A DNA stretch of 64,000 nucleotides, from positions 62,001 to 126,000 of the forward strand of contig ML978141.1 in assembly GCA_010015805.1 (NCBI GenBank). Reading direction: 5' to 3'. Numbering within the stretch: position 1 is the stretch's first letter; each line of letters starts with the position of its first letter. This stretch comes from Rhizodiscina lignyota (lineage: Eukaryota; Ascomycota; Dothideomycetes; Aulographales; Rhizodiscinaceae). The notes below the pieces were generated by a model. That model was not told where the DNA came from. It did not search any database and saw only the letters and a list, made by a program, of their open reading frames with translations. The translations under genes were made by a program, and so were the position numbers. Of the stretch, positions 29,259 through 32,200 are shown piece after piece.

Positions 29259-32200
29259 ATGCTGAAGACGTAAGTATTCTCCTCATTGAGATGCAATTGA
29301 CCCGCATCAGCCCACTAACACGATGCTACGAACAGCGGCTTCGCCAGGAGCCTCCGGGCAACGTCCTTCGGCCGGCCAACAGCAGTTCGTCGCGCGTTCC
29401 AACCCGTCAAGCGCAGCTTTGCTCCTGCGATCGCACAGAGGTTCGCCAGCACCGACTCAGCGAAGGATGGCAGAATCCATCAGGTCATTGGTGCCGTTGT
29501 GGATGGTACGTAGAGCCGCTTGTTTTTTTCGCCGAGTCGGGAGAGGCTTGGCGTCGTTGAGAAGCTTGAGGTGTTAACGTATTGCAGTAAAATTCGACAC
29601 AGAGCAGCTCCCACCCATTCTCAACGCCCTGACGACGGACAATGGCGGTCAGAAGCTGGTGCTGGAGGTCGCGGTAAGCTTTAGCGTTGACACAAAGGAG
29701 TGAGCTGGAGCTAACGGATGCGACAGCAACATTTGGGTGAGAACGTCGTGCGATGCATTGCTATGGACGGTAAGCTCAATACATTCATTGCGTGATCATT
29801 TGAATGTTGTGCTAATGTTCCTGCAGGTACCGAAGGTCTCGTCCGTGGTGCCAAAGCCTCCGACACCGGCAATCCCATCATGATTCCCGTCGGCGAAGGC
29901 ACCCTCGGCCGTATCATGAACGTCACTGGCGACCCCATTGACGAGCGTGGACCGATCAAGGCTACCAAGAGACTGCCTATTCACGCCGACCCTCCCGAAT
30001 TTGTTGAACAGTCCACTTCCGCTGAGGTCTTGATCACCGGCATCAAGGTTGTCGATCTGCTGGCCCCATATGCTCGTGGTGGAAAGATTGGCCTCTTCGG
30101 CGGTGCGGGTGTTGGCAAGACTGTGTTCATTCAGGAGCTCATCGTATGGAATGCAGAATCCTCTGGCAAGAGCGTTGCTAATAAAATTTCAGAATAACAT
30201 TGCCAAGGCGCACGGTGGCTTCTCCGTCTTCACTGGTGTCGGTGAGCGTACCCGTGAGGGCAACGACCTCTACCATGAAATGCAGGAGACCTCCGTTATT
30301 CAGCTTGATGGCGAGTCCAAGGTTGCGCTGGTGTTCGGTCAGATGAACGAACCTCCAGGTGCCCGTGCTCGCGTCGCCCTTACTGGTGTGAGTGCTTAGT
30401 TCTTTCTTCAACTGGGAGCTTCCTTCCCACTGTCCCACTGGGACCTTCTTCATGATACTTTATCAGCTCATTTCTTTGGTCCTACCTGCCATTTGTCCAT
30501 GATGGAGGGGCTTTTTCTTTTCTCTCCCTCGTCCTTGACGATGCTTGTTGCAACGCCCCAGCAACGAGCCCGTTACCATGGATTCGGTCGACTCGGAAAC
30601 GGATCTGGATCTGGACCTGGACGAGGAGTTGGACGGTGTCGATTTCGATCCTCTTCAAAGCAAAATAGAAGATCTGACTTACAACCTCGTCAACATCGAC
30701 GCTCCCTCTTGGTACATTAATCCTGACTTCAAAATTCTGTTCAAAGAGCGAGCCAACTACGACAGTATTGCTGAATGCTCTCCTCTCTCATTCCCACCGA
30801 CATTGGGCGATGTGCTCTCCGCAAACGAACCCCCGTCTATCGATTTCTTCTTCTCTCTGTCGGAGCCTCTACCTGAAGATGACAAAGTGTGGGCCGTCTA
30901 CGCAGTGGTAATGCAGAAGAATGGCTGTCCAGACAGGGTCTACACTGGCTCCGGCACGAGCGCTGCTGAGGGCGTCATGGCAAGACTGAAGAATTACAAG
31001 CCAGGCAATGCGTTGTTGCCAAGCTTCATGGTTAAAGCATTTAAAGACGGCTTCCATGTCGCATCAAAAGGACTACTCTGCTGGACGCCGTTGCCCCGAC
31101 CCGGTTTGGTTCCTCGAGTACGAGCTCGTTTCCTCATGCTTGAAGCTGCTTTCACCATAATCTTCCATACCTCTAATGTCGCCATGACGGACAAGTACTT
31201 CGAGCACTTGTTGATCTGGCCTCGAGCTTCTGTCGCGTGGGCCCCTCTCTGCTCCCATCTTTCCTTCATGGAGGCTGTCCGTGGTGACTTGTCGATGAGT
31301 CCAGACGAACTCGAGATTGTTGCTGCGATCCGCCAATCGAGGCTGAAGGAAAACGCCTTGTTGAGAAGCCAAAAGCACCGAGCAGCCAGGCGTACAAAAG
31401 ACCCCGAGGCCTATCGTCTGAGAGATCGCATCCAAAAAGCCGCATGGGTCGACAAGAACTGGGAGAGGAACAACCAGACGATGGCAAGGACGAAACAGAG
31501 AGCAAAAGACAGTGAACGTTTCTACTGCGATGACTGTGAAATGTCATTGCAGAGCGAGGTAGCGCTGCAGAAACACCTGCTTACCCAAGCTCACCAAGAT
31601 TGTGTCGATGGTCTCGAGAAGTCTGCACCATCTCGCAGTGCCGTGTCTGTCGCTACATTGCGTTCCATCGCCAAAGCCAACAAGACACACTACTGTTCCA
31701 CCTGCAAAAAAGCTTTCGACAACGACTGGAGCTTAACAAGGCACAATGACACCAAGTTACACCTCAAGAGACTCAAAAAACTCCAGGACTCGCAATAGGA
31801 TTTCCATCTCATGGCTTCTTTTCTTTCCACATCTCTTAAATTAACAACAATTTGGGACCAATGGATGCTAACAACTATGTAAAGTTGACGGTCGCTGAGT
31901 TTTTCCGCGATCAAGAGGGCCAGGACGTGCTGCTCTTCATCGACAACATCTTCCGTTTCACGCAAGCCGGTTCCGAAGTGTCTGCCCTGCTCGGTCGTAT
32001 CCCCTCTGCGGTCGGTTACCAACCTACTCTGGCCGTGGATATGGGTGCTATGCAGGAACGTATCACAACCACCCAGAAGGGTTCCATTACCTCCGTGCAA
32101 GCCGTCTACGTGCCCGCTGACGACTTGACGGATCCCGCCCCTGCCACCACCTTCGCACATTTGGACGCCACAACTGTGCTTTCGCGTGGTATCTCCGAGT

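Follow-up and report, generated by a model that had tools for sequence, protein, structure and literature searches.

GIY-YIG homing endonucleases such as I-TevI are hosted by self-splicing group I introns, and the PRP8 and VMA1 inteins are homing elements of conserved fungal nuclear genes that carry LAGLIDADG-type nucleases and are removed by protein splicing. Spliceosomal introns housing nuclease genes were named shintrons (spliceosomal homing introns) in November 2025: the available text of PMC12768974 reports more than 2,000 genes inside the spliceosomal introns of mirusviruses, with 334 nucleases among them, 132 of the GIY-YIG kind, distinguishes four nuclease types, including GIY-YIG and HNH, and presents the association of intron and nuclease as previously unobserved. 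With GIY-YIG and HNH genes described from mirusvirus spliceosomal introns in that text, the statement of an earlier, sequence-only reading of the present locus that it knew of no well-described case has become outdated. Among the matches listed for openly licensed PMC papers, judged by title and the start of the abstract, no cellular case of a shintron was found. The accessible passages of PMC7282813 describe the WHO elements of yeasts, homing genes of the conserved nuclear gene FBA1 that combine a nuclease with zinc fingers and lie outside introns, while those of PMC7593156 describe UMAG_11064 of Ustilago maydis, a nuclear GIY-YIG relic regarded as a recent insertion of mitochondrial origin. 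The part of PMC4469406 that is available deals with mitochondrial nucleases only.

The locus compared here with these systems is intron 6 of ATP2, whose features are collected in Table 1. The reading preferred, with a probability of roughly 0.4, is that it is a spliceosomal intron housing a separately expressed, selfish gene of the homing-endonuclease type, which would place it beside the shintrons of mirusviruses as their nuclear equivalent. The window (the whole stretch of DNA analysed, 64,000 nucleotides) appears to be fungal nuclear DNA, as judged from its Pfam domains, short GT-AG introns and RIP-like repeats. Twenty of its 73 open stretches were scanned, half of which (10/20) had a Pfam match at E<=0.001, and its genes include those with Fungal_trans_2 and DUF382/PSP domains. 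No match at this limit was obtained for an 882-codon open stretch on the minus strand (5348-7993), or for the minus-strand open stretch 15836-17314, within which an 81-bp tandem repeat (2.9 copies) occupies 17078-17309.

Table 1. Features of ATP2, its intron 6 and the nested open reading frame (positions in the window).
Feature	Position	Strand	Description
ATP2 (mitochondrial F1 ATP synthase beta)	29259..32619	+	7 exons, 518 codons, complete
ATP2 exons	29259-29269, 29336-29505, 29588-29673, 29727-29769, 29827-30143, 30193-30387, 31885-32619		
Oversized spliceosomal intron 6 of ATP2	30388..31884	+	1,497 nt, phase 0, after codon 274
Pyrimidine-rich tract	30510..30540	+	26/30 pyrimidines, ~40-70 nt upstream of the ORF ATG
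Nested ORF	30578..31798	+	406 codons, unbroken frame; good ATG context (ACCATGG)
Candidate GIY-YIG-like region	30893..31177	+	Residues 106-200: Y108, Y122-T-G124, R136, Y140, E189, N200
Zinc finger 1	31526..31594	+	Residues 317-339, CX2CX12HX5H; Pfam KIN17, JAZ and zf-met at 314-340
Zinc finger 2	31694..31762	+	Residues 373-395, CX2CX12HX5H; Pfam zf-C2H2 at 371-391

ATP2 is an essential gene. Its exons, once joined, form an open frame of 518 codons, the product of which matches solved ATP synthase beta subunits in the PDB, 5fl7_D best of all (phmmer, E 4e-257). Introns 1-5 measure 66, 82, 53, 57 and 49 nt, so that intron 6 is at least 18-fold longer than each of them. It has a GTGAGT donor at 30388, a branch-like TGCTAAC at 31866-31872, 12 nt from its end, and an AAAG acceptor ending at 31884; the remaining five introns end in CAG. 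The earlier claim of a 1,497-nt intron among others of 49-82 nt, with GT-AG ends and a branch site, thus proved exact in its coordinates, and the exon junction it implied gives an intact ATP2. The intron opens with GTG AGT GCT TAG, an in-frame stop, and must therefore be removed for ATP2 to be made; that it is indeed spliced is suggested by the intact ATP2 frame. At the junction, where ARVALTG meets LTVAEFF, the alignment of ATP2 with 5fl7_D (the one alignment inspected) has no gap, and according to the PDB alignment the conservation of ATP2 at this site is high. No family reached the gathering score in an Rfam search of the whole window, and at E<=1 over 30188-32084 the sole match was a chance-level snoRNA (E 0.89), with no intron family; a group I or group II intron was rejected for want of an Rfam ribozyme match in either search. 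The anatomy agrees with that of a spliceosomal homing intron, with an ORF lying within a GT-AG intron that bears no group I or group II signatures.

The unbroken 406-codon frame on the sense strand, also claimed in the sequence-only reading, was found intact and lies far above chance expectation. Among 1,000 dinucleotide shuffles of intron 6, the longest ATG-initiated ORF had a median of 94 and a maximum of 240 codons, and a chance ORF was rejected on this ground. The codon score is +0.13 bits per codon in the ORF frame, the only positive frame of six (the five remaining frames of the region score -0.29, -0.26, and -0.03, -0.16, -0.46), while ATP2 itself, left out of training, scores +0.41. 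Synonymous usage correlates with that of the window genes at r=0.63 for the ORF, against 0.23 and 0.18 for the other sense frames and 0.69 for ATP2; the training set consisted of ATP2 and six long ORFs of the window, in whose segments there may be introns. The agreement with the codon usage of the window genes is therefore best in the ORF's own frame and weaker than for ATP2. The nested ORF resembles coding sequence, is undamaged and follows nuclear codon usage. A recent mitochondrial transfer was rejected on account of its GC3 of 0.60 and its phenylalanine codons (TTC 16 vs TTT 1).

The non-coding part of intron 6 amounts to 276 nt, divided into a 190-nt leader and an 86-nt trailer. Within the leader, the pyrimidine-rich tract may be the core promoter of an independent transcript, and four ATGs precede that of the ORF. 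TATCAG, with its last letter at 30466, may serve as an alternative acceptor 79 nt from the intron-6 donor; the stretch 30388-30466 has a length like that of the other ATP2 introns, and could point to a short intron of earlier date or to a splice form that carries the ORF. If used, this acceptor would leave the ORF in an ATP2-derived mRNA. Because of the four upstream ATGs and the possible alternative acceptor, the route by which the ORF is expressed is one that we infer.

The protein carries two CX2CX12HX5H (CCHH) fingers and hence belongs with the C2H2 proteins; both fingers of the earlier reading are present, at residues 317-339 and 373-395, and match C2H2-type Pfam models. The pattern arose at least once in 4 of 20,000 shuffles of the protein and twice in none. 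The E-values of the Pfam matches are 3e-6 for KIN17, 7e-6 for JAZ, 2.5e-4 for zf-C2H2 and 3e-4 for zf-met; KIN17, JAZ and zf-met score at or above their cut-offs, whereas zf-C2H2 falls below its own (21.8 vs 25.2 bits). KIN17 and JAZ are the best finger models, and the JAZ model is described as double-stranded-RNA-binding. By sequence, the best match in the PDB is a weak one at finger 2, to 8pv1_Cb, a 'Zinc finger domain-containing protein' (E 0.029). For the 313 residues ahead of the fingers, searches of Pfam, NCBIfam, PHROGs and the PDB gave nothing significant. NCBIfam yielded three irrelevant matches (best E 0.042) and PHROGs four, none of them significant (best E 0.11).

These results bear on the main rival explanation, according to which the ORF came to lie in ATP2 by an old insertion and is an ordinary gene of the host, passed on vertically, whose product binds nucleic acid through two JAZ/KIN17-like fingers and has no nuclease. 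Such a gene would agree with the C2H2 fingers as the only significant domain matches, with the negative outcome of the GIY-YIG profile tests described below, and with a normal nuclear codon usage in an unbroken frame. It accounts less well for the 313 unmatched residues, and fungal introns seldom hold a gene of 1.2 kb, a situation that a passenger fits better. Homing is the most attractive reading, though not an established one, and a nested zinc-finger gene comes close to it in likelihood.

The homing reading depends on a nuclease, for which the sequence-only reading had pointed to GIY-YIG-like blocks. The letters are there in the form of AVY at 106-108 (not GIY), YTG at 122-124, an Arg and a Glu, but the protein does not contain the strict pattern G[IVLF]Y...[YVF][IVYF]G...R, which arises in 4 of 20,000 shuffles. 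A loose form of the motif is present and occurs in 18 of 20,000 shuffles, the pattern having been chosen post hoc from the sequence itself. Order and spacing are like those of I-TevI, taken from the phage T4 record, at residues that we take to be its catalytic positions: the distances are, for I-TevI and the protein respectively, 11 vs 14 (Y-Y), 10 vs 14 (Y-R), 4 vs 4 (R-Y/H), 48 vs 53 (R-E) and 15 vs 11 (E-N).

Profile comparisons, which had been proposed as a check, did not bear out a GIY-YIG assignment. Pfam searches at a limit of E 10 returned no GIY-YIG family (PF01541 or related) for the whole protein or for any of three sub-regions (3/3), although the HMMER filters drop most Pfam matches above ~0.1 in spite of this limit, and no GIY-YIG match to the protein was found in the PDB by sequence. 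A custom GIY-YIG HMM was built from 17 sequences, namely 15 of 20 loci together with the T4 loci L002 and L005. L009 was excluded because its sequence equals the query, and four further loci (L015, L016, L018 and L026) because they shared their identity and E-value with an included locus and were judged redundant on these two values; the T4 loci L003, L004 and L006-L008 are absent from the model. Against 2,281 target sequences (the protein itself, 280 other window ORFs and 2,000 shuffles of the protein), the protein ranked 140 of 1,353 reported matches, no better than shuffles. With hhalign, its score was equalled or exceeded by 62 of 200 shuffles and its probability by 176 of 200, which is not significant. 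The hhalign alignment places Y, YxG, R and Y opposite their canonical counterparts and sets E189 against a Glu that is not the catalytic one, while MAFFT pairs all of these, including E189, with canonical residues.

The outcome for the predicted fold, also put forward as a check, was divided, both models being poor (pLDDT ~40). In a full-length single-sequence AlphaFold model of low confidence (mean pLDDT 40.4), residues 106-196 have the order b-b-a-a-b-a; this order was lost in a shorter model of 125 aa (single-sequence AlphaFold, mean pLDDT 41.2), which keeps b-b-a and then has only strands and no helices. Foldseek searches with the two models gave no GIY-YIG chain among the best 50 of 140 and the best 50 of 631 matches (E<=10). 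The GIY-YIG assignment, which profile, sequence and fold comparisons do not support, survives only in a plausible spacing of the candidate residues and in a secondary-structure order predicted with low confidence. That region 106-200 is a diverged GIY-YIG domain is given about an even chance, as a judgement and not as a computed figure.

A motif of this kind could also belong to a formerly mobile homing gene that is now domesticated or losing its activity, having gone to fixation in the lineage and being retained because the host uses it, as HO was derived from WHO elements (a precedent given in the available text of PMC7282813). This alternative is unlikely; it would explain why a degenerate candidate motif (AVY, YTG), unrecognised by profiles, stands in a fully intact frame, but the same degeneracy may mean that the protein was never GIY-YIG.

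Searches for relatives covered prokaryotic, viral, phage and plasmid DNA. A tblastn-confirmed scan of contigs from 84,980 prokaryote species, each represented by a single genome, which finds close relatives only, gave no relative, and the same holds, with the same reach, for IMG/VR viral contigs searched with the whole protein and an 80-residue fragment. Three tblastn matches among plasmids and phages at a limit of E 10 (E 3, 7 and 9) were taken as chance, and blastn of intron 6 against plasmids gave none. The degenerate pattern K/R-G-LL-CW-x-P-x-P, the choice of which was partly motivated by fungal predicted proteins that presumably contain a similar block, was found in 14 stretches of prokaryote contigs and one of viral contigs; 11 of these 15 loci had a tblastn match at E<=10 (best 0.039) and four had none, and all 15 were taken as chance. 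The lack of a relative in these kinds of DNA is unsurprising for a fungal gene.

The repeats around ATP2 have a RIP-like composition, with TpA/ApT of 1.37-1.59 and (CA+TG)/(AC+GT) of 0.37-0.84 in four 500-nt bins (27500-28999 and 33000-33499) and a weaker signature in 33500-33999 (1.12 and 1.13). In the nested ORF these indices are 0.53 and 1.24, against 0.68 and 1.24 over the whole window. The ORF thus has no RIP signature, which argues against a close multicopy history and is as expected for a single copy; both a homing gene confined to one site and an ordinary gene in a single copy would agree with this. A recent multicopy transposon was rejected, since the ORF bears no RIP signature and has no second copy in the window. 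The repeat remnants that bracket ATP2 consist of an inverted pair (27520-27723 / 33223-33426, 79%) and two direct pairs (28830-28902 / 33583-33655, 86%; 27984-28057 / 28757-28830, 89%).

A gene that reached the intron by chance, through retroposition or aboard a transposon, is the least probable of the alternatives weighed. The ORF is a single frame that needs no intron of its own, and repeat remnants occur on both sides of ATP2, but its surroundings showed neither terminal inverted repeats nor a target-site duplication, and no poly-A tail either, the longest A-run of the 86-nt trailer being at most 3. Moreover, the longest repeat pairs listed, one direct (23 nt, 78%) and one inverted (17 nt, 82%), do not bracket the ORF, and the non-coding share of the intron is just 276 nt.

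According to the homing reading, the nested gene would be transcribed from its own CT-rich promoter within the first 190 nt of intron 6. Its fingers would bind the conserved ATP2 sequence at the exon 6/7 joint (..GCCCTTACTGGT joined to TTGACGGTCGCTGAG..), and region 106-200 would act as a GIY-YIG-type nuclease that cuts ATP2 alleles without the intron, after which the intron-bearing allele would serve as repair template and the intron would be copied in. The spliceosome, and not a ribozyme, would render the insertion harmless. Such an element could persist in a RIP genome because homing replaces the allele at one site and adds no ectopic copies. In favour of this reading were counted the presence of one oversized intron among the six of ATP2, with an intact ORF as its excess, the high conservation of ATP2 at the site, the absence of a RIP signature from the ORF beside repeats that bear one, the residue spacing, the secondary-structure order, the MAFFT and hhalign pairings, and the viral and WHO/FBA1 precedents; the negative profile and fold searches, the AVY/YTG motif and the KIN17/JAZ finger models were counted against it. 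The fuller proposal of a cellular shintron is more tentative still. In it, a fungal nuclear spliceosomal intron would spread to those alleles of an essential gene that lack it, using a diverged GIY-YIG and zinc-finger nuclease that it encodes itself; the host spliceosome would take the place of self-splicing, and a single-site cycle would let the intron escape RIP.

If this is true, homing elements gain a further nuclear hiding place, ordinary spliceosomal introns, besides inteins and rDNA introns, and the mirusvirus idea of 2025 is extended to cellular genomes. It would also provide a direct route and a testable mechanism for the gain of spliceosomal introns, and their movement between alleles, in conserved cellular genes. 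Should the nuclease fail, the locus would still hold an uncommon intact nested gene in ATP2, perhaps missed by gene prediction.

Each of the known systems resembles the locus in part. The ORF differs from I-TevI-type GIY-YIG enzymes in that profiles rate it no better than shuffles and in its nuclear GC and codon usage, and intron 6, with its immediate in-frame stop, needs RNA splicing, whereas PRP8 and VMA1 inteins rely on protein splicing. UMAG_11064, as described in the accessible passages of PMC7593156, is a GIY-YIG homing gene of a fungal nuclear genome, as the nested ORF may be, but its codon usage is mitochondrial, its active site is mutated, and it lies in a telomeric helicase gene and not in an intron. 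WHO elements and HO share with the ATP2 ORF a nuclear location, a conserved metabolic gene and the order of nuclease (a candidate one in the ORF) followed by zinc fingers; independent transcription is stated for WHO elements and would apply to the ORF as well. They differ, according to the same available text (PMC7282813), in being LAGLIDADG proteins (intein-like), in lying downstream of FBA1 and not in an intron, and in their CXXC zinc motifs. Finally, the mirusvirus shintrons, as far as the available text of PMC12768974 describes them, are like ATP2 intron 6 in that a whole gene lies within a GT-AG intron of a conserved gene, with no group I or group II signatures; they belong to viral genomes and contain recognised nuclease domains, whereas intron 6 belongs to a fungal nuclear gene and combines a candidate GIY-YIG domain with two C-terminal CCHH fingers.
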